Shown here: in pieces, positions 19,848 to 32,371 of the stretch
Numbering within the stretch: the first letter of the stretch is position 1
How the letters are laid out: each line of letters begins with the position of its first letter
Source: Pirellulales bacterium
GTDB taxonomy: Bacteria > Planctomycetota > Planctomycetia > Pirellulales > DATAWG01
Reading direction: 5' to 3'
Assembly (NCBI GenBank): GCA_035939775.1
Contig: DASZFO010000235.1
Span: 1-52,107 of the forward strand
DNA: 52,107 bases
Program-made: the position numbers and the translations under genes
Notes under the pieces: generated by a model
Told to the model about the DNA's origin: nothing
Databases searched by the model: none
The model's input: only the letters and a program-made list of their open reading frames with translations

Positions 19848-20735
19848 TCACCGCTTCCCCGCGATGGCCCGCTGGACCGCCGTGCCCATATCGGCCGGGC
19901 TTTCGGCGACGACAATGCCGGCCGCCTCGAGCGCCGCGACCTTGTCGGCCGCAGTCCCCTTGCCGCCGGTGATGATCGCCCCGGCGTGCCCCATCCGCTT
20001 GCCGGGGGGCGCGGTGCGCCCGGCGATAAAGGCCGCGACCGGCTTGCTGACATTCGCCTTCACGAAAGCCGCCGCCTCTTCCTCAGCGGTGCCCCCGATC
20101 TCGCCGATCATCAGAATCGCCTCGGTCGCCGGATCGGCCTCGAACATCGCCAGCAGATCGATGAACGAAGTCCCCACGATCGGATCGCCCCCCAGACCCA
20201 CGCACGTCGATTGGCCCAGCCCGATGTTGCTCAACTGCCAGACCGCTTCGTACGTGAGCGTGCCGCTGCGGCTCATTAGCCCGACCGGGCCCTTCTTATG
20301 AATGTAGCCAGGCATGATCCCGATCTTGCACTCGTCCGGCGTTATCACGCCGGGACAATTCGGGCCGACCAGGCGGCTGGCGCTGCGCCGCACGACATCG
20401 TACACCCGGACCATGTCGAGCACCGGCACGCCTTCGGTGATCGCCACCACCGTCTCGATCCCCGCATCGACGGCTTCGAGAATCGCGTCGGCCGTGAAGG
20501 CCGGCGGGACAAAGATCATCGTGGCGTCGGCCCCGGTGGCATCAACCGCCGCAAAGACCGTGTCAAAAACCGGCAGCCCCTCGACCTTCTCGCCGCTCTT
20601 TCCCGGCGTCACGCCCCCCACCATGTTCGTGCCGTATGCGAGGCAGCCCTTGGTATGAAACTGGCCGACCTTGCCGGTGATCCCCTGGCAAATGACGCGC
20701 GTCTGTTTGTTGATGAGGATGCTCATGCCGCTCAT
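19848..20735 (-). CDS. sucD: Succinate-CoA ligase, ADP/GDP-forming, alpha subunit
   Basis: The protein has 295 residues, the usual length. SucD joins SucC to convert succinyl-CoA to succinate with substrate-level phosphorylation in the TCA cycle. Visible family marks: [20 protein letters not shown] (nucleotide/CoA-binding start), [53 protein letters not shown], and the phosphorylated histidine H250 in GHAGAII. Starting at 20726 (MSILINKQ) would match most homologues slightly better. The odd points are that no sucC lies upstream and that a GGGGACTGTCCCC repeat begins only five bases before the ATG. Confidence 0.96.
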
Positions 20736-20740
20736 TTATA

Positions 20741-20855
20741 GCCTATCCGAGAACCGCCGGGGACTGTCCCCTTTTGTGGAGCGGGCACCCATCGCCGCGA
20801 TGGTCGGGAACAAAAGGGGACTGTCCCCCTCTCCACAGGTAGTTTTTGGATAGGC
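20741..20855. repeat. GGGGACTGTCCCC repeat element, copy 1
   Basis: The element is bounded by GCCTATCCGAGAAC (20741-20754) and its imperfect inverse GTTTTTGGATAGGC (20842-20855). Two GGGGACTGTCCCC near-palindromes in the same orientation lie inside, around a short spacer. It has no coding capacity and resembles a REP/MITE-like element. It directly abuts the sucD start codon. Confidence 0.75.
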
Positions 20856-20953
20856 TCTTATCCGATGTGAAATTCAAGCGTTGATTTTTGGAACAGTTTA
20901 CCACAGTCAATTCGTGCGTCTAGCGGCAGGAAGGCTCACCATGATCGCTGATT

Positions 20954-21057
20954 TAGAACCCCTCACAACGCCGCCGGGGACTGTCCCCCTTTTGCGGAGT
21001 CGGCGGAGCAAAACGGGGACTGTCCCCTTCTCCCAGGCGGTTTTGTGAGGGGTTCTA
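20954..21057. repeat. GGGGACTGTCCCC repeat element, copy 2, with perfect 15-bp terminal inverted repeats
   Basis: TAGAACCCCTCACAA (20954-20968) and TTGTGAGGGGTTCTA (21043-21057) are perfect 15-bp inverted termini. Inside are two GGGGACTGTCCCC near-palindromes, as in copy 1, but the outer termini differ from copy 1. The rest of the 20736-21198 gap shows no gene. Confidence 0.75.
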
Positions 21058-21198
21058 ACGACGCAATGGGGCAATTCTTGAGCTAAATTTGTAAATCCTG
21101 GTGTGGCACGCGTCTCCTCTTCGAGCCTGAGCCTCAGAGCCGAAGGCTGACCGTGCCACGGGCGTGATTTCCGCCGCCAAATCCGAGGAAAAACCCCG

Positions 21199-24585: not shown

Positions 24586-24622
24586 GGCCGCGTTATCCCG
24601 GACCGCCGGCAGCCGGGGCAAG
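24586..24622 (-). promoter_or_regulatory. 37-bp promoter-like element, copy 1 (degenerate target)
   Basis: On the minus strand it has TTGCCC, an 18-base spacer and GATAAC, and ends at ATG 24583-24585. That ATG reads ATG CAA TAA, so it encodes only two residues. This is the only copy not followed by an open frame, and one of two with AAC instead of AAT in the -10-like hexamer. Confidence 0.6.
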
Positions 24623-24677
24623 GGACTCAACGAGCCGACCGTTATAGCTGTGTCACCTTGTCTAGGAAAAATGCCGC

Positions 24678-24953
24678 TTACTCTCTGAAGGGCGGTTCCG
24701 GCGGAAACTCTACGTATATGAAACCGATGAACATGCCGAGTAGAACGCCGAAGAACGCGCCCTGGAACGGCTTGCCCTCGATGCAGCCGACTGCTGCGCC
24801 GCCAGTGGCGAAAAATCCTAGGAAAAGAAGCACGGGATAAATGCCTGGATCGAATCTCGTCGCGAGGAATAGCACCCCGAGTCGCATTGCCACGCCAAGG
24901 AGCGCAACCGCGCCGAGCATCCGGCGCATCGAGAACTGAGAAGGCATCAGCAT
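24678..24953 (-). CDS. Small membrane protein, FSMRRM family
   Basis: The protein has 91 residues from ATG 24953, the ATG that the 37-bp element abuts. The N-terminus is MLMPSQFSMRRMLGAVALLG. Three hydrophobic stretches follow (LGAVALLGVAMRLGVLFLA, YPVLLFLGFFATGGAAVG, AFFGVLLGMFIGFIYV) with the connecting motif AVGCIEGKP. It is clearly paralogous to the gene at 25910-26194, which has ALGCVEGRP at the same place. No function is known. No Shine-Dalgarno site is seen, as expected of a leaderless message. Confidence 0.72.
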   Translation of the reverse strand: MLMPSQFSMRRMLGAVALLGVAMRLGVLFLATRFDPGIYPVLLFLGFFATGGAAVGCIEGKPFQGAFFGVLLGMFIGFIYVEFPPEPPFRE

Positions 24954-24990
24954 GTCCGCATTATCCGCGACCGCGGGCAGCAACGGCAAG
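24954..24990 (-). promoter_or_regulatory. 37-bp promoter-like element, copy 2
   Basis: On the minus strand it has TTGCCG, an 18-base spacer and GATAAT, then GCGGAC and the ATG of the membrane protein gene at 24953. It ends exactly at the start codon. Confidence 0.7.
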
Positions 24991-25055
24991 CGATGCTGGG
25001 CGGCCATCGTCGCCGGCCATCGGTTTCGCTGTAAGAAGCTACGGCATGGGGCGGA

Positions 25056-25811
25056 TTACCGGATCCTATCCGGGTCGATCGCTTCGCCGCCATTGCGGGT
25101 GAAAAGTGCCTTGAGCGTCTCCAAGTCCTCTTCGTTGCTGATTACGATGGTGCGGCAATCAGCTAACACCGCGCAAAAAATTCCTCCTGCGTGCGCCTCG
25201 CCCAGGCCGTCGAGTGGCTCATTCAGGTCGACTTCCAAATCGTCCGGCTTGGTCCAAATCACTGCGCGATCATCATTGACCTCGACCGCGAGGATCGTGT
25301 TGCTGGTCCCGTCGGTGAATGACTGAATTGGCAATCCTTCGGTTCCCTCGAACGCCAACCCCTTGCCAACCGGAACCAAGAACACCGCCTTGCCGTCGTC
25401 AGCGCGACCTGGCTTAGCGTAGGCCGACGGCATCTTGGCGATGAGTGCCTTGTTGTTCGGACTGTCCCACGGCTCGTCCAAATGGAACTGCTTGTAGAGC
25501 TCGTTCTCCTCGATGTATGGGAGGATTGCGACGCGCCAACTCAACAGCGGCTTCCCCTCCGTGCTGAAGATCGCGTGGGCCGGGAAATGCCGGTTTGCCC
25601 GTTCATAACTGAGCATCGCCAAACCGATCTGGCGCAATTCGTTCAACAGTTCACGACCGTTGGCGGCCTCTCTCTCGATCTTCGCCTCGTGCGCCAGGTA
25701 GCCGCAGACCACGGCCACGACCGTGACGACCACGAACAGCGACCGCAGGCTGAACTGAAACCAACGGCGTTTGCTCTTCGGCGTGGCAGCTTTCGGCGAA
25801 TCGGTTTCCAT
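25056..25811 (-). CDS. Membrane-anchored DUF1559-like protein
   Basis: The protein has 251 residues from ATG 25811. The N-terminus carries the anchor shared by this cluster (KSKRRWFQFSLRSLFVVVTV) instead of a type IV pilin-like leader. The rest is DUF1559-like: ELRQIGLAMLSYERANRHFP, LLSWRVAILPYIEENELYKQ, FHLDEPWDSPNNKALIAKMP, FTDGTSNTILAVEV, HAGGIFCAVLADCRTIVISN. The same blocks occur in the DUF1559 protein at 37900-39441. DUF1559 is a large planctomycete family of mostly unknown function. The anchor suggests a swap of N-terminus within the cluster. Confidence 0.85.
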   Translation of the reverse strand: METDSPKAATPKSKRRWFQFSLRSLFVVVTVVAVVCGYLAHEAKIEREAANGRELLNELRQIGLAMLSYERANRHFPAHAIFSTEGKPLLSWRVAILPYIEENELYKQFHLDEPWDSPNNKALIAKMPSAYAKPGRADDGKAVFLVPVGKGLAFEGTEGLPIQSFTDGTSNTILAVEVNDDRAVIWTKPDDLEVDLNEPLDGLGEAHAGGIFCAVLADCRTIVISNEEDLETLKALFTRNGGEAIDPDRIR

Positions 25812-25848
25812 CGCCTCATTATCCCCGACCGCGGGCAGCCGGAGCAAG
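25812..25848 (-). promoter_or_regulatory. 37-bp promoter-like element, copy 3
   Basis: On the minus strand it has TTGCTC, an 18-base spacer and GATAAT, then GAGGCG and the ATG at 25811 of the DUF1559-like gene. Length and spacing equal the other copies. Confidence 0.7.
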
Positions 25849-25909
25849 GATGTCGGAAGCCGGGCGGCTATTCGTTTTGAAATCTATCCACGGACGTATT
25901 GCTGACTGC

Positions 25910-26194
25910 TTATTCAAAAGGACCACGTTGGGCAATCGTCACCCAGGCGATGCCAATCCCTACCCCGATCACCGCGCCCCAGATTGCACCCGCGCGGGGC
26001 CTTCCCTCCACGCAGCCGAGTGCCGTTCCAGTTGCCGCAGAGAATCCAACACAGAGAAACACCTGGAAGATGCCAGGACTAACGCCACCATCATGTCGCA
26101 CGTCGAGGAACACCATAAAAAGGCGCGCGGCCACGCAGAGCATCGCGACCATGCCAAACATCCGTCGCATCGAGAATGGAAATGGCTTGCTCAT
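25910..26194 (-). CDS. Small membrane protein, FSMRRM family
   Basis: The protein has 94 residues from ATG 26194; a longer frame upstream has no recognisable sequence. It begins MSKPFPFSMRRMFGMVAMLC and has about three hydrophobic segments (MFGMVAMLCVAARLFMVFL, IFQVFLCVGFSAATGTALG, IWGAVIGVGIGIAWVTIA). It aligns along its length with the protein at 24678-24953. The function is unknown. Confidence 0.7.
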   Translation of the reverse strand: MSKPFPFSMRRMFGMVAMLCVAARLFMVFLDVRHDGGVSPGIFQVFLCVGFSAATGTALGCVEGRPRAGAIWGAVIGVGIGIAWVTIAQRGPFE

Positions 26195-26237
26195 GGCCGC
26201 GTTATACCTGGACAAATCAACGGCAGCCGGACGCGAG
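26195..26237 (-). promoter_or_regulatory. Promoter-like element, copy 4 (43 bp variant)
   Basis: This copy keeps the two ends of the element (TCCGGCTGCC on the left, ATAACGCGGCC then ATG on the right) but is six bases longer, with a replaced middle (TTGATTTGTCCAGG). The -10-like hexamer becomes TATAAC. It is the most divergent copy and shows that the flanks, not the centre, are what is kept. Confidence 0.55.
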
Positions 26238-26283
26238 CGCCTCGACCAGGGGCGAAGCATCGGTCCACGCGGTTGACGTTCTC

Positions 26284-26529
26284 TTAGTGAGCGGAACGCC
26301 CGTACTTCTTTGTCGGGCCGTTCCACAACGCCAACCCGATTAGCCGTAGTTTCTCCTTAAGCGTGACCTTTACGCGGGCTTGCTCCACTTGCCACTCTCG
26401 CAGCATCGGCAAGCAGACCCCGCACTGAACCCCCATGATCGCGACGACGACGAAAAGCGTCCGCAGGCTGAATTGAAACCAACGGCGTTTGTGTTTCGAC
26501 GAGTCGGCTTTGGGTGGCTCGGATTGCAT
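26284..26529 (-). CDS. Small single-pass membrane protein, WFQFSLR anchor
   Basis: The protein has 81 residues from ATG 26529. The N-terminus MQSEPPKADSSKHKRRWFQF continues SLRTLFVVVAIMGVQCGVCL as one membrane segment. A short charged helix follows (EWQVEQARVKVTLKEKLRLI) and a short tail. The anchor is shared with the genes at 25056, 26743 and 27300, but the C-terminal part is unlike theirs and has no known domain. Confidence 0.65.
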   Translation of the reverse strand: MQSEPPKADSSKHKRRWFQFSLRTLFVVVAIMGVQCGVCLPMLREWQVEQARVKVTLKEKLRLIGLALWNGPTKKYGRSAH

Positions 26530-26566
26530 GGCCGCATTATCCCCGACCGCGGGCAGCCGGAGCAAG
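26530..26566 (-). promoter_or_regulatory. 37-bp promoter-like element, copy 5
   Basis: On the minus strand it has TTGCTC, an 18-base spacer and GATAAT, then GCGGCC and ATG 26529. It represents the consensus of the set, and the upstream TATCT is also shared with copy 6. Confidence 0.72.
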
Positions 26567-26742
26567 AGATACGTGCGGCGGATGAGGATACCGGTGCGGG
26601 GTTTGTCAAGGAAAAAACCGCGCGTGATCGCTGGTTATGCCGTGAGCCAGCATACCTATTCCGGCCAGACAGGCCCACGCAGCCTTGCCCCACAAGCGCG
26701 CCGGCGACTGGCTTCGTTGCGACCACGATGCCTAGGCGTCAT

Positions 26743-27141
26743 TCACCGGGCATTGGGACAGGATGCGCGTTCGGGGTAATCGGTCATAAAACCGAACGCA
26801 GCTTCAGGGAAAACGGTCTTCATCCGACTCGCTTGCGGCTTGGAAATGCCATATGGAAAATTGATGCTCAATGCCGTGTGATCGCCAATCAGAATGCGAA
26901 TCCATGTGATCTGCGACGTCTCGGGATGCTCCATCTCGTATTGCGCCTCGTGAATCACGCCACCGTTGTCCAGTAACCACGACCGAAGGGCCTTGCGTTC
27001 CTCCACGACCCGGGCTTGATGCGCAAGCCAACCGCATGGGATCGCCAGCAGCGTGACGACTATCATCAGCGACCGCAGGCTGAATTGAAACCAGCGGCGT
27101 TTGCGCTTCGGCGGATCGGCTTTGGGCAGCTCGGTTTGCAT
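26743..27141 (-). CDS. Membrane-anchored protein, WFQFSLR anchor with LRR-family-like tail
   Basis: The protein has 132 residues from ATG 27141. The anchor is KRKRRWFQFSLRSLMIVVTL. A helix (HQARVVEERKALRSWLLDNG) leads to a segment (GVIHEAQYEMEHPET, IRILIGDHTALSINFP, MKTVFPEAAFG) that resembles the N-terminal part of planctomycete TM/leucine-rich-repeat proteins, but the repeats themselves are absent. Its tail aligns in pattern with the protein at 27300-27755. It may be a truncated or minimal form of that family. Confidence 0.68.
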   Translation of the reverse strand: MQTELPKADPPKRKRRWFQFSLRSLMIVVTLLAIPCGWLAHQARVVEERKALRSWLLDNGGVIHEAQYEMEHPETSQITWIRILIGDHTALSINFPYGISKPQASRMKTVFPEAAFGFMTDYPERASCPNAR

Positions 27142-27178
27142 GGCCGCATTATCCCCCACCGCGGGCAGCCGGAGCAAG
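27142..27178 (-). promoter_or_regulatory. 37-bp promoter-like element, copy 6
   Basis: On the minus strand it has TTGCTC, an 18-base spacer and GATAAT, then GCGGCC and ATG 27141. It differs from copy 5 by one base within the 37. Confidence 0.72.
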
Positions 27179-27299
27179 AGATACGGAAGGTCATTGTCGC
27201 CAGAGCACCCGCGGCGATTCCGAATCGCTCCCGCGCTCGGACATGGGAGGCGGGATACCGGGGGGAAATTGGCTTGCGGGGCTGAGCAGGTGAACGCCG

Positions 27300-27755
27300 T
27301 TATTCGCGCGCGCCGGGAGCAGAAGATTCTGGCGCGGGGTACGGTTCTGATTGAGTGTTGGTAACCGTGGAGGCCGCGTGGCGAGCCGAAGGGCGTGGCG
27401 GTGATTCATCCACTATGTCGGCCTCTGGAAACAAGGCGACGAGGTGCGCTCGCTGCTCAAGTTCCGTTTCTGGAGAGATTTCGATCGCCATGATTCTCAC
27501 GTCGCCGAGCATTCGGCGAAGCGGCGAAATCGGGTTTGGTCCCACGACTTCAAAACCTTCAAAAAGGAATCCCCATCGTCCATTAACGTCGCGATCAAGC
27601 TCTTGCTTCCGCTCCCGCACGATCTTCGCCTGCCAACCGATGTAGGCGCACGGCACGGCCATCAGCGCAACGCCGATCATCAGCGAGCGCAGGCTGAACT
27701 GAAACCAGCGGCGTTTGCGCTTCGGCGGGTCGGCTTTGGGCGGCTCGATTTGCAT
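27300..27755 (-). CDS. Membrane-anchored protein, WFQFSLR anchor with LRR-family-like tail
   Basis: The protein has 151 residues from ATG 27755. The N-terminus (MQIEPPKADPPKRKRRWFQF) is nearly identical to its neighbour at 26743-27141. After the membrane segment comes a charged helix (QAKIVRERKQELDRDVNGRW) and a soluble region with LRRMLGDVRIMAIEISPETE and HLVALFPEADIVDESP. The Ser/Pro-rich tail is low in complexity. It is unrecognised beyond the planctomycete TM/LRR-type N-terminal region. Confidence 0.66.
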   Translation of the reverse strand: MQIEPPKADPPKRKRRWFQFSLRSLMIGVALMAVPCAYIGWQAKIVRERKQELDRDVNGRWGFLFEGFEVVGPNPISPLRRMLGDVRIMAIEISPETELEQRAHLVALFPEADIVDESPPRPSARHAASTVTNTQSEPYPAPESSAPGARE

Positions 27756-27792
27756 GGCTGCATTATCCCCGACAGCGAGCAGCCGGGGCAAG
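27756..27792 (-). promoter_or_regulatory. 37-bp promoter-like element, copy 7
   Basis: On the minus strand it has TTGCCC, an 18-base spacer with several substitutions and GATAAT, then GCAGCC and ATG 27755. The spacer length is kept although its bases differ, as expected of a promoter spacer. It lies 10 bases past the stop of the gene upstream. Confidence 0.7.
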
Positions 27793-27802
27793 AGATTCCG
27801 AT

Positions 27803-28399
27803 TCAGCGATCCAAGCCGTCAATTCTCTCCAGAAACTTCGTCTGCTCGGCGACAATCGTTTGCCAATTCGGCCGCTCCATCTTTCGGATGTACTCGATCG
27901 TTTCTTTGAGTCGCTTCTTGAATTCCTCCGTCGAAACTCGTTCACTATCTTCACCCGGTCCTGACTTTTCCCGACGCCCCTGGCCGAAGTCAACCGGAAT
28001 CAGAATCCACGCCTTGTCCTCAAAGATGGTGGGTGCGGAGATGTGCATGGTCCACCGAGTCGGGCGATTGAAGTACATCAGCACCAACTGTCCGGGATCG
28101 TTCTGTTGCAGGCCGGGGACATAGCCGTAGTCCGGCGCCCAATCCATGGAGCCTTCCATTTCCTCGCGAATGGCATTGAGCGAATTTCGGCCGACGCCTC
28201 CCACATTCGGGAATTCGTTCGTGCGGGTCGTGCTGTCCTTGCCGTTTCTGACGATCCAGTTTTCGAATGCGAGCATGATCTGCGCATGACAATAAGGCTT
28301 GCCCTGCCAATCGAGAATGAAGTTGTAATAGCCCAGCGGCAACCCGATGACGAGGACTGCCGCGACGATCCATTTCACGATTTGGCGTGACGGACGCAT
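27803..28399 (-). CDS. Single-pass membrane protein of unknown function
   Basis: The protein has 198 residues. An N-terminal membrane segment (QIVKWIVAAVLVIGLPLGYY) is followed by a soluble domain with no recognised family (NEFPNVGGVGRNSLNAIREE, DYGYVPGLQQNDPGQLVLMY, WTMHISAPTIFEDKAWILIP). Its start lies only six bases after the stop of the gene at 28406-28783, so the two are probably co-transcribed from element copy 8. It has no 37-bp element of its own. Confidence 0.7.
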   Translation of the reverse strand: MRPSRQIVKWIVAAVLVIGLPLGYYNFILDWQGKPYCHAQIMLAFENWIVRNGKDSTTRTNEFPNVGGVGRNSLNAIREEMEGSMDWAPDYGYVPGLQQNDPGQLVLMYFNRPTRWTMHISAPTIFEDKAWILIPVDFGQGRREKSGPGEDSERVSTEEFKKRLKETIEYIRKMERPNWQTIVAEQTKFLERIDGLDR

Positions 28400-28405
28400 A
28401 ACGGT

Positions 28406-28783
28406 TTAGCGAGTCGGAAGGTGGTCGGAAATCCATTGGAGGAAGAGCGCGAATACGGCGCCCGCGAGCGTGCCTGCCAATAGGGCGGCGAGCGTGGTGA
28501 AGCCCCTGCTGGTTGGATCTTGACCTTTGCCGTCCCCTTCAAACACATGCAAGTAGATCTGCCAGCCGATGAATGCGCCCATGAGCGCGACAACGGCAGT
28601 TAAGATCGCGTCAACAGCATTTCGCCGGTTCATGAACACGACGAGGAGGCTCGCGACGGCTCCGAACGGCGCAGCAAGCGGCCAATCCTCGGGGCCGAAG
28701 TATTGGGCCATTCGAATTGTCAGCGCAAAGACCGCGATGATCAGAAATACCTTGTATAGCGGGAATTGGAAGCGCCGGGACAT
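28406..28783 (-). CDS. Small multi-pass membrane protein
   Basis: The protein has 125 residues from ATG 28783, which element copy 8 abuts. It begins MSRRFQFPLYKVFLIIAVFA, a variant of the cluster's FQFSLR anchor. Four hydrophobic segments are visible (VFLIIAVFALTIRMAQY, APFGAVASLLVVFMN, AILTAVVALMGAFIGWQIYL, TTLAALLAGTLAGAVFALFL). The function is unknown. Confidence 0.7.
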   Translation of the reverse strand: MSRRFQFPLYKVFLIIAVFALTIRMAQYFGPEDWPLAAPFGAVASLLVVFMNRRNAVDAILTAVVALMGAFIGWQIYLHVFEGDGKGQDPTSRGFTTLAALLAGTLAGAVFALFLQWISDHLPTR

Positions 28784-28820
28784 GTCCGCATTATCCCCGA
28801 CCGCGGGCAGCGGGGGCAAG
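28784..28820 (-). promoter_or_regulatory. 37-bp promoter-like element, copy 8
   Basis: On the minus strand it has TTGCCC, an 18-base spacer and GATAAT, then GCGGAC and ATG 28783. It probably drives both the gene at 28406-28783 and the one at 27803-28399. Confidence 0.7.
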
Positions 28821-28867
28821 CGCGGTGCAAAGGGCCGACGGGCCGGTTCATGATGTTCGAAAGGACT

Positions 28868-29284
28868 CTACTCCGGCATGAGCGTCGGGATCACCAGGCG
28901 GCCGTTTTTGCGGTAGATGCGGAAATGGCGGTCGAGGGTGAAGACGCTGCTGTCGGCGTATTGCTCGGCCATGCGGACCAGGCAGGCGTCGGCTAGCGAC
29001 ATCGGGGTCGAGCGGTAGCGGGTGAGCAGGCGGGAGACGGTCGGGAGTTCGTCCGCCAGGCAAAATGGAGTCGTCACGACGGCGCGGGATAAGAGCTGCA
29101 TCAGGGCGTCGACGCCTCCGTCGATGCCCCGCAAAAGGAAGCCAGCTTCGGAAATGACCGCCTCGCACGTGACCAGCGGCGGGCGGAGGAGCTTGAATTG
29201 CTCGTGGGACCAATCGTGATGGCGCTCCCGCCGGTTCAACAGGGCCACGAGCGGGCCGGTATCGACGATCACCGGCCCTTTCAT
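28868..29284 (-). CDS. PIN-domain toxin, VapC-type
   Basis: The protein has 138 residues. PIN-domain acidic residues are visible: D8 in VIVDTGPLVALLN, E41 or E46 in TCEAVISEAGF, D99 in SLADACLVRMAEQ and D118 in VFTLDRHF. VapC-type toxins are Mg-dependent RNases. The start ATG overlaps the antitoxin stop by four bases (29281-29284), the standard coupled arrangement. The RNA target cannot be deduced. Confidence 0.9.
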   Translation of the reverse strand: MKGPVIVDTGPLVALLNRRERHHDWSHEQFKLLRPPLVTCEAVISEAGFLLRGIDGGVDALMQLLSRAVVTTPFCLADELPTVSRLLTRYRSTPMSLADACLVRMAEQYADSSVFTLDRHFRIYRKNGRLVIPTLMPE

Positions 29285-29520
29285 CGGCCGTATCCGCGAA
29301 GGTGCTTCGGATTCGTGGCCAGATCCTTGGGCCCGCCCACGGCGCCGATGAGGTCGCCCGCCAGATCGGCGCAGGATGGTTCGGCGCCATTTCGCGCGGC
29401 GGCGAAATAGGCCTCGAGTGCCGTGCGAATCACTTCCGACTTGGCCAAGCTGCGCTTCCGCGACAGCTCGGCCAACTTGGCGTGCAGGTCATCGGGCAAT
29501 TTGAGCGAGACGGTCTTCAT
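29281..29520 (-). CDS. Ribbon-helix-helix antitoxin of the PIN toxin
   Basis: The protein has 79 residues from ATG 29520; a further upstream start adds 11 residues with no family similarity. MKTVSLKLPDDLHAKLAELS followed by KSEVIRTALEAYF is the RHH (CopG/Arc-like) DNA-binding fold. The C-terminal part (LAGDLIGAVGGPKDLATNPK) is probably the toxin-binding tail. Such antitoxins repress their own promoter, and a palindrome lies just upstream. Confidence 0.88.
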   Translation of the reverse strand: MKTVSLKLPDDLHAKLAELSRKRSLAKSEVIRTALEAYFAAARNGAEPSCADLAGDLIGAVGGPKDLATNPKHLRGYGR

Positions 29521-29533
29521 GCGATGGCCGCAA

Positions 29534-29562
29534 GTAATACCATAGTAGTACAAGTGTATTAC
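29534..29562. promoter_or_regulatory. Probable antitoxin operator palindrome
   Basis: GTAATAC (29534-29540) and GTATTAC (29556-29562) are perfect 7-bp inverted half-sites, 15 bases apart, starting 13 bases upstream of the antitoxin ATG. Location and symmetry fit an autoregulatory operator of an RHH antitoxin. Binding is inferred. Confidence 0.6.
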
Positions 29563-29656
29563 GCAGGTCGGGATTCGTCAACGTGGGCAGAACCGCGGAA
29601 GAACGCGGATTGACGCGGATTCCGAATCGTTCTCCGCGTCCGAACGGCGGCGGAGT

Positions 29657-30130
29657 CTAACGACGCCCCCAAAGAATCATCCACACCATAGCAGCGATAA
29701 ATGCAGCAGCACTCCAAAGCGCGCCGCCAAGCGGCTGGCACAGAATGACCCACGACGCAAGCGTCGATACGCCGACAGTCAAGAAAATAGCAACAGTCAT
29801 ATCCTCGCGCTGCGAGCCAAAATACTGGTTCGTAAGAACAAAAAATAACCCGGCTTCGGCGCAGACAATCGTCACGATCACGAACATTCGACGCATCGAG
29901 AATCGAAACGGCTTGCTTGTCGGCGCATTCTCCCGGCCCCTGAAAAGGCGGGGCCGCGGCGTTTTTCGCACAAGCCACAAAGCGAAAAGCACTGTTGCTG
30001 CGGCAAAAATCGCGGTGCGAATGGCCGGCCACATAAAGCCCTCATGCCAACATCGCTCCGCAGCACCCCCCAGGACCAAGCCGATGCCCATCAGCAACAT
30101 GAACGCGGCAAATCGGCGGATCGGGTCCAT
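29657..30130 (-). CDS. Multi-pass membrane protein with FSMRRM motif
   Basis: The protein has 157 residues from ATG 30130, the ATG that element copy 9 abuts. It has two N-terminal hydrophobic segments (FAAFMLLMGIGLVLGGAAE, IRTAIFAAATVLFALWLV). The cluster motif TSKPFRFSMRRMFVIVTIVC then falls in the middle rather than at the start, followed by two or three more segments. This looks like a fusion of an extra membrane hairpin to an FSMRRM-type protein. The function is unknown. Confidence 0.7.
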   Translation of the reverse strand: MDPIRRFAAFMLLMGIGLVLGGAAERCWHEGFMWPAIRTAIFAAATVLFALWLVRKTPRPRLFRGRENAPTSKPFRFSMRRMFVIVTIVCAEAGLFFVLTNQYFGSQREDMTVAIFLTVGVSTLASWVILCQPLGGALWSAAAFIAAMVWMILWGRR

Positions 30131-30167
30131 GACAGCATTATCCCCGACCGCCGGCAGCCCGAGCAAG
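30131..30167 (-). promoter_or_regulatory. 37-bp promoter-like element, copy 9
   Basis: On the minus strand it has TTGCTC, an 18-base spacer and GATAAT, then GCTGTC and ATG 30130. It is the most upstream copy, lying beyond the toxin-antitoxin pair. Confidence 0.7.
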
Positions 30168-30944: not shown

Positions 30945-31183
30945 ATCCGGCTGGGACTCCACAAAAGGGGACAGTCCCCGGCCGTTCTCGCTGCGGAGGC
31001 GTAGGGAGCGCTCGGCGAAAGCGAGCCAACCAGCGCGAAAACGCTCGACGCGTCGAGCGGATTGCCGTCCTGCGTAGTCTATCTCCTCGAACCCGGCCTG
31101 CGCAAAGGGGACAGTCCCCGTTTTGCTCCGCGGACTGCGCAAAAGGGGGACAGTCCCCGGCGGTTTTCGGATAGGCTCTAAGT
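30945..31183. repeat. GGGGACAGTCCCC repeat elements, copy 3 (compound)
   Basis: Three GGGGACAGTCCCC near-palindromes, in the opposite orientation to copies 1 and 2, lie in this region. The right end has CGGTTTTCGGATAGGCTCTA, the same terminal sequence type as copy 1, and contains the argJ stop codon (31178-31180). The left part is decayed. The element fills nearly all of the space between the convergent isochorismatase and argJ genes. Confidence 0.65.
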
Positions 31184-32371
31184 GTGATAGTCGGCGTTAA
31201 GCCGAATGTATTCGGCGGTCAGATCGGTCGTCCAGAAGCGGACGCGCGCATCGCCTTCGGAGAATCGCAACGTGATGATCGTGTCGCGCTCGGCGCGGAT
31301 CGAGGCGGAGACGGCGGCGGCGTCGAAGGGGGTCGGAGCGCCGCCGCGATAGAGCAAGAAGCCGTTCAGATTGAGTTCCACTTCGAGCGGATCGAAGGCC
31401 ACGCCCGCATAACCGGCGGCCGAAACGATTCGGCCCCAATTCGGGTCGGCCCCGGCGATGGCCGTCTTGACCAGAGCGCTATCGGCCACCGTCTTGGCGA
31501 TCTGGCGGGCCGCTTCGCGCGTGGCGCATCCGCTAACTTCGATCAGCACTAGATGCGTCGCCCCTTCGCCGTCGGCCGGAATCGATCGGGCCAGCTCTGC
31601 GGCCACAGCGTGCAATTCCTCCTGAAATGCGGCCAGATCGGAGCCCGCGAGCGGTGAGCCGCCCGCCGCGCCGTTGGCGACGAGCAACACCGTATCGTTG
31701 GTGCTCATGTGCCCTTCGACGCTGATGCAGTTGAATGTGTCGTCGACGACCGCGGAAAGCGATTGCTGGGCCGCTGCGGCGGTGAGCGGGGCGTCGGACA
31801 GAATCAGACCGAGCATCGTGCCCATCCGCGGGCCGATCATTGCGGCCCCCTTGGCCATGCCCGTGATCCGAATGGTTCGCCCGCCGAGGGAAAGCGTGCG
31901 GCCGGCGAGTTTATGGACCGTGTCGGTGGTCATCATCCCGCGGGCAGCCGCCACGAGCGATTCCTCGCCGGTCCCCAATTGATCGGCGACGATTGCGATT
32001 CCTGCGGCGATCTTCTCCATCGGCAAGTACTCGCCGATGATGCCGGTCGACATCACAAGCGCCTGCTCACCCGTCGCATCGCAAGCCGCAGCGGCCAGGC
32101 GGGCCATTTCCCGAGCATCCGCTAGCCCGCGCTCGCCCGTGCAGGCATTGGCGTTGCCGGAGTTGATTACCACCGCGCGGAAGCCGCTGCCTGGAGTTCG
32201 CGAACGGTCGAGCGCCACCGGTGCGGCGAACACTAGATTTTGCGTGTACACGCCCGCCGCCACGGCCGGATGGTAAGAAACGACGAGCGACAAATCCTGC
32301 CGAGTCGTGTTTCGCTTCAATCCGCAATGCACACCGCCCAGGCGGAACCCTAATGGAATTTGGATCGACAT
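31178..32371 (-). CDS. argJ: Bifunctional glutamate N-acetyltransferase / amino-acid N-acetyltransferase
   Basis: The protein has 397 residues from ATG 32371 (MSIQIPLGFRLGGVHCG); a longer frame has no family similarity. ArgJ moves acetyl from N-acetylornithine to glutamate in cyclic arginine synthesis. Marks: AVVINSGNANACTGERG, VMSTGIIGEYLPMEK, KGAAMIGPRMGTMLG with the autocleavage nucleophile T185, EGHMSTNDTVLLVANG, and the C-terminus INADY-like RLNADYHT. The usual residue before the Thr is Ala and here it is Gly. It lies downstream of argC, 199 bases away, separated by an inverted repeat. Its stop codon is inside a GGGGACAGTCCCC element. Confidence 0.96.
   Translation of the reverse strand: MSIQIPLGFRLGGVHCGLKRNTTRQDLSLVVSYHPAVAAGVYTQNLVFAAPVALDRSRTPGSGFRAVVINSGNANACTGERGLADAREMARLAAAACDATGEQALVMSTGIIGEYLPMEKIAAGIAIVADQLGTGEESLVAAARGMMTTDTVHKLAGRTLSLGGRTIRITGMAKGAAMIGPRMGTMLGLILSDAPLTAAAAQQSLSAVVDDTFNCISVEGHMSTNDTVLLVANGAAGGSPLAGSDLAAFQEELHAVAAELARSIPADGEGATHLVLIEVSGCATREAARQIAKTVADSALVKTAIAGADPNWGRIVSAAGYAGVAFDPLEVELNLNGFLLYRGGAPTPFDAAAVSASIRAERDTIITLRFSEGDARVRFWTTDLTAEYIRLNADYHT

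Follow-up and report, generated by a model that had tools for sequence, protein, structure and literature searches.

Promoters are said to spread within a genome: the 'mobile promoters', or promoter propagation, attributed to Matus-Garcia in 2012 and to van Passel in 2014 (as cited in PMC8049555), are reportedly near-identical promoters that stand before non-homologous genes of one genome and are absent from its relatives. Here, we describe a 37-bp element that ends at an ATG start codon and is repeated on the minus strand of a 52,107-bp contig of a Pirellulales bacterium (DASZFO010000235.1; hereafter the window), and we read it, with a probability of about three in four, as a leaderless promoter that belongs to a family of small membrane proteins and has been amplified, putatively as a mobile unit. 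Like the mobile promoters, the element precedes both family genes and non-homologous genes (leucine-rich repeat (LRR) and LolA-like genes). The element gave no match in 57 related genomes, only one of which comes from the same family. Unlike the mobile promoters, it ends in a start codon and usually brings along the first codons of the source gene, and its copies are clustered and co-oriented.

A TANNNT motif about 12 bp upstream of leaderless starts has been described in Actinobacteria, Deinococcus-Thermus and other groups (Zheng et al. 2011, PMC3160421; PMC12340547), and the term Planctomycetes was not found in either paper. The genes studied here resemble those genes in having a -10-like hexamer a few bases before the ATG, no Shine-Dalgarno (SD) sequence and no expected leader, but differ in that a single genome holds about 70 copies of one complete promoter together with its spacer. 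In Deinococcus, most genes whose -10 region is adjacent to the open reading frame (ORF) have no classical -35 region (PMC12340547), whereas the present element has a -35 of the TTG type 18 bp upstream. A survey that included one Planctomycetes genome suggested leaderless and/or S1-type initiation for the non-SD genes of the phylum (PMC5397173); that work concerned a statistical bias in a single genome, while here a defined gene family keeps an exact six-base spacing across many genera. No transcription-start map for Planctomycetes was found in the literature searched, which left out most subscription papers. Integron attC arrays and CALIN arrays (clusters of attC sites lacking integron-integrases) likewise have a repeat that is specific to the species and separates mostly unrelated genes of one strand, but in the present case there is no integrase, R box or conserved fold.

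Element copies in the window and the genome

Rereading of the minus strand between 23.8 and 31.2 kb, with extraction of the nine places at which an earlier note had reported the repeat, recovered the described sequence at every one of them, each time up to an ATG. That the nine are copies of one element holds for the eight of 37 bp, which share the form CTTGC(T/C)...GGGATAA(T/C)GCGG.. before the ATG and have the common consensus CTTGCTCCGGCTGCCCGCGGTCGGGGATAATGCGGCC followed by ATG, but not for 'copy 4', a different promoter that shares only the ends of the element and resembles the promoters of FSMRRM paralogues on other contigs. Indeed, a sequence-only model built from 14 copies (R1) detects eight of the nine, and copy 4 goes undetected even at E 10. 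An exact-length search allowing at most 3 mismatches found four copies where 0.00 were expected (no match in 100 shuffles), and Rfam gave no family within the window. The places are as follows.

30131 to 30167, minus strand: element copy 9, 37 bp, TTGCTC-18-GATAAT-6-ATG (R1 46.2 bits)
28784 to 28820, minus strand: element copy 8 (R1 51.3 bits)
27756 to 27792, minus strand: element copy 7 (R1 47.0 bits)
27142 to 27178, minus strand: element copy 6 (R1 52.7 bits)
26530 to 26566, minus strand: element copy 5, identical to the genome consensus (R1 56.4 bits)
26560 to 26565 and 26536 to 26541, minus strand: presumed -35 box TTGCTC and -10 box GATAAT of copy 5
26529, minus strand: expected transcription start of copy 5, on the A of the ATG
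26195 to 26231, minus strand: 'copy 4', a different promoter, TATAAC-GCGGCC-ATG, with the same -10/ATG geometry and a different spacer
25812 to 25848, minus strand: element copy 3 (R1 51.9 bits)
24954 to 24990, minus strand: element copy 2 (R1 44.3 bits)
24586 to 24622, minus strand: element copy 1 (R1 47.6 bits)

The genome that contains the window is a 6.39 Mb draft of 384 contigs (96% complete), for which counts rest on searches together with fetched stretches. With R1, the element was placed at 71 positions at E < 0.003, giving about 70 copies, and there are 58 occurrences of the pattern GATAATNNNNNNATG compared with 2 of its reversed form. Outside this genome, the element core had no exact match in 84,980 species genomes (GTDB) or in IMG/VR, using a strict core pattern and with the window's own records possibly excluded; as far as can be seen, the element appears to be lineage-restricted. 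Within the genome, all copies lie on one strand in 12 of the 13 contigs with at least two copies. The element is not found mostly away from start codons, as the ATG is kept at the expected position in 52 of 69 copies, although many of these 52 open broken reading frames. On contig C71 (13000-28000), twelve same-strand copies lie within 12 kb, amid GNAT, two ThuA, glyoxalase and LolA-like genes.

Over the 71 copies, the per-column information is high from -37 to +2 and falls abruptly at both ends, beyond which there remain a weaker arm (-54 to -38) and, after the ATG, a decaying tail of family coding sequence. The spacer is conserved at about 90% over its whole length and not only at the boxes, and the variable positions (-32, -26, -22, -14 and -1) do not covary. 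RNAalifold, applied to 67 copies on either strand, gave no structure or nothing beyond a 2-bp stem; a REP-like hairpin was ruled out on this absence of conserved pairing. Element identity (.80) exceeds that of third codon positions behind the ATG (.63) and of the upstream flank (.67, aligned in 11 copies).

This conservation is non-coding in character, which bears on the alternative raised in the earlier note, namely that the element is a translated N-terminus, MLRLPAVGDNAAM, initiated at an in-frame TTG. Of 69 copies, 68 have this frame open and 63 have the TTG at -36, but an open frame follows from the small number of substitutions, the TTG is preceded by no SD sequence, and family genes of other genomes have no such extension. 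Read in that frame, the element shows most variation at second codon positions and little at third (majority frequency.93/.87/.90 by codon position, with no wobble), whereas codons 2-23 of intact family copies show identities of.84/.86/.63. Since the element is conserved without a codon pattern while the codons after the ATG have one, we reject translation from the TTG and leave it next to no probability.

Geometry of a probable leaderless promoter

The element matches a sigma-70-like promoter whose transcripts would be expected to start on the ATG. Given the six-base distance between hexamer and ATG, found with the ATG in place in the 52 copies mentioned above, transcription would be expected to start at the A of this codon, and the discriminator, GCGGCC, contains no SD sequence. 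In the mechanism that we propose, the 37 bp would form a sigma-70-type core promoter made of the -35 TTGCTC, an 18-bp spacer, the -10 GATAAT and this 6-bp discriminator; transcription would begin at the A of the ATG, and the leaderless mRNAs would be translated from their 5'-terminal AUG without an SD sequence.

The strongest support for leaderless expression comes from comparative geometry, which is independent of this repeat. We compared 90 element-less family genes of this genome and others in the order: 20 have TANNNT exactly 6 nt before the ATG, where the background is 0.56 per spacer (p about 2e-24 by Poisson statistics, with genes taken as independent though some are related). For the 81 family genes from other genomes, TANAAT stands at spacer 6 in 11 and in at most 3 at any other spacer, and an SD 4-mer occurs in the usual window in only two. 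The upstream sequences of these element-less genes are different but again place a TANAAT-like hexamer at six bases from the ATG, e.g., TACAAT-GCGGGC, TATACT-ACCGCC, TAGAAT-GCGAAC and TAAAAT-GGCGAC, and a lake metagenome-assembled genome labelled Planctomycetota carries TATAAC-AACAGT-ATG ahead of a homologue. In this genome, TANAAT-N6-ATG also lies ahead of ORFs read as recG, uppS, thyX, an extracytoplasmic function (ECF) sigma factor and Uma2-like genes, names that were assigned from the sequence by eye and not from profiles. The claim of leaderless genes in the earlier note is thus supported by the geometry, by the absent SD sequence and by related genes that keep a -10 six bases from the ATG. 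Leaderless expression of the element-led genes is well supported at the level of sequence and probably occurs, and in the explanation that we favour, this geometry would be an old trait of the planctomycete family. In another genus (genome G035; L228, L272 and L274), two family promoters share a GC-rich spacer, TTCTNCTGGCAGC...GCGCGGTAGAAT, and a third is partly alike, which is perhaps an independent parallel of the same amplification.

Several observations weigh against the reading of an amplified leaderless promoter. SD motifs precede most genes taken at random from this genome, among which TANNNT-N6 is in no clear excess (444 kb, with a crude ORF caller), so that leaderless use as a general mode of the genome was ruled out and appears as a minority mode concentrated in this family. 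The -35 TTGCTC agrees with TTGACA at only 3 of 6 positions, and some family genes are without any TANNNT, although several of them may be distal members of operons. Element and gene distances were uncorrelated in a Mantel test, a result that carries no weight because the positive control failed too. In addition, the equal conservation of the element beside intact and broken ORFs, detailed below, is unexpected if each copy had been kept solely as the promoter of its own gene; such strong conservation requires either a recent burst or another role.

Uncoupling, spread and rival explanations

About 20 of the 70 copies precede an intact family ORF, and the remainder open short, shifted or unrelated frames. 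Mismatches to the consensus, out of 37 positions, average 3.70 beside intact family ORFs and 3.71 beside the others. Homology to the family N-terminus after the ATG ends anywhere from 0 to 110 nt, and 17 of 71 copies have no such homology, including those at the LRR and LolA-like genes. Frames that reach 60 codons or more and score positive for hexamers follow approximately 27 copies, and 21% of random ATGs pass a similar cut, which makes this weak evidence that many are real genes. On C71, the LolA-like gene has an SD sequence and ATG of its own, and the element stands just upstream of these, while its paralogue on C2 is without the element and the homology between the two starts right after it; the C71 gene seems to have gained the element in front of an SD sequence already its own. 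Two LRR genes (97% identical) are alike only from the left edge of the element onward, with no shared sequence ahead of that edge.

Element divergence is star-like, with a distance of.173 within contigs and.186 between contigs (p 0.17), which fits one burst followed by independent mutation. We propose that the promoter belongs to a family of planctomycete membrane proteins, short and single-pass, and that, in this species, one version of it would have been amplified, by recombination or duplication, to about 70 copies together with 0 to ~110 nt of its first gene. Among the present copies, some would drive family genes and some precede other genes, while the frames behind about half are short or broken. 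Other genomes, in which the element is missing, have family clusters on one strand as well, and the common orientation may therefore reflect tandem growth of the family. Subsets of copies have longer upstream modules (~110 nt in about 11 copies; in three copies, TTTTTCCTTGACAAACC lies exactly at -49/-50 from the core), so that the moving piece may be longer than 37 bp. Defined ends, target duplications or an empty orthologous site were not found in these searches, and in the one relative of the same family, the homologues of the flanking genes lie on different contigs. The ~110-nt stretch, CCAGAATCCAGCCGCCCGCGTCC...GTTGAGAATCCCGCCCGCCGATGCGTTGGCC, lies upstream of copies at, e.g., C56:1706, C187:1363, C333:1788 and C71:16904, and occurs once without an element directly behind it (C187:279).

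The earlier note had also proposed that the shared element makes its genes a regulon, which is not supported as stated, since copying of one promoter with a paralogous family explains the sharing best and about 50 of the 70 copies have no intact family ORF. In its stronger form, the 18-bp spacer would hold an operator for one regulator, or be recognised by an alternative sigma factor, and selection would keep it identical. The spacer conservation given above and the excess of element identity over third codon positions speak for such selection, as does an imperfect dyad, CCGnCnGCnnGCnGnCGG, seen by eye across the spacer, but this dyad is likely due to chance in GC-rich DNA. Moreover, relatives with the same gene family lack the element, leaderless family genes of the same genome do without it, its conservation is equal where no gene follows, and there is no regulator candidate for the shared site; we consider a regulon unlikely. 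Ordinary paralogy, in which recently duplicated genes would simply share their upstream sequence and the element would be nothing special, accounts for the part of the family N-terminus kept at most copies. It is improbable given the sharp edges at -37 and at the ATG, the conservation above third positions and its persistence in the 17 copies with zero downstream homology.

Alternatively, the element could be a site for recombination in an integron-like array of gene cassettes, or in another site-specific mobile element, with promoter likeness as a secondary feature. This would agree with the single-strand copies on 12 of 13 contigs, the VapBC-like, GNAT, ThuA and glyoxalase genes in the clusters, the star-like divergence, the two LRR genes whose shared sequence begins at the exact left edge, and a XerC-like recombinase near two copies on C217. 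However, the draft, which is 96% complete, contains no integron integrase (best TIGR02249 score 82 bits against a cut-off of 265), the consensus has neither the R'' RYYYAAC nor the R' GTTRRRY box (neither AAC nor GTT is present), and no fold is conserved on either strand. In addition, the element travels with the downstream gene and not with the upstream one, and same-strand family clusters are found where the element is absent. An integron or CALIN array was rejected on the missing IntI, R boxes and fold, and we hold the cassette explanation as a whole very doubtful. The XerC-like gene is a tyrosine recombinase (C217, L074, 2175-3116) that falls below all curated NCBIfam cut-offs, on a contig with three element copies. 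Equally speculative is a bolder form of mobility, in which the element and the start codon would be one mobile unit that inserts in one orientation, gives genes a ready-made leaderless start and, with no known type of integrase, builds up arrays in which new small genes share one orientation.

Window genes and meaning of the proposed leaderless promoter

Seven of the copies stand exactly at the starts of ORFs of 81-251 codons, whereas the ATG of copy 1 opens a two-codon ORF only (ATG CAA TAA, M-Q-stop) and directly starts no gene. The genes behind the copies are listed below.

29657 to 30130, minus strand: 157-aa membrane protein ORF, its ATG right after copy 9, with an internal FRFSMRRMF motif and no Pfam family above cut-off
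28406 to 28783, minus strand: 125-aa membrane protein ORF (MSRRFQFPLYKVF...), behind copy 8
27300 to 27755, minus strand: 151-aa FSLRSLL-family ORF (MQIEPPKADPPKRKRRWFQFSLRSLM...), behind copy 7
26743 to 27141, minus strand: 132-aa FSLRSLL-family ORF, behind copy 6
26284 to 26529, minus strand: 81-aa FSLRSLL-family ORF, behind copy 5
25910 to 26194, minus strand: 94-aa FSMRRM-type ORF, behind 'copy 4'
25056 to 25811, minus strand: 251-aa ORF with FSLRSLL N-terminus and DUF1559 (SBP_bac_10) domain (E 5.6e-25), behind copy 3
24678 to 24953, minus strand: 91-aa FSMRRM-type ORF, behind copy 2

These window genes encode small membrane proteins with an N-terminal segment ...KRRWFQFSLRSLL... or ...FQFSMRRML..., and the family as a whole is made up of short proteins that span the membrane once and have ...RRWFQFSLRSLL... 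in their N-terminal part. None of the small window proteins reached the NCBIfam cut-offs (the best match was sub-threshold), and the small FSLRSLL members tested matched no Pfam or NCBIfam family above cut-off. The FSLRSLL family is expanded many-fold in several other genomes of the order (G019, G047, G052, G045 and G022). Between copies 8 and 9, a VapBC-like toxin-antitoxin pair (ribbon-helix-helix and PIN-domain genes, 28868-29284 and 29281-29520, minus strand) has no element copy of its own. A second dispersed repeat, whose GGGGACTGTCCCCTTTTG core has 59 exact matches across the genome, in both orientations, flanks the cluster of element copies in the window as inverted repeats about 10 kb apart (20733-21058 and 30957-31184).

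Altogether, if our reading is true, leaderless expression would be a conserved trait specific to a gene family in this planctomycete order. The approximately 70 natural replicates of one leaderless promoter, each with different downstream codons, would allow direct tests of the sequence rules that govern leaderless initiation, and the amplification of a promoter together with its start codon would provide a simple route to new expressed small proteins.

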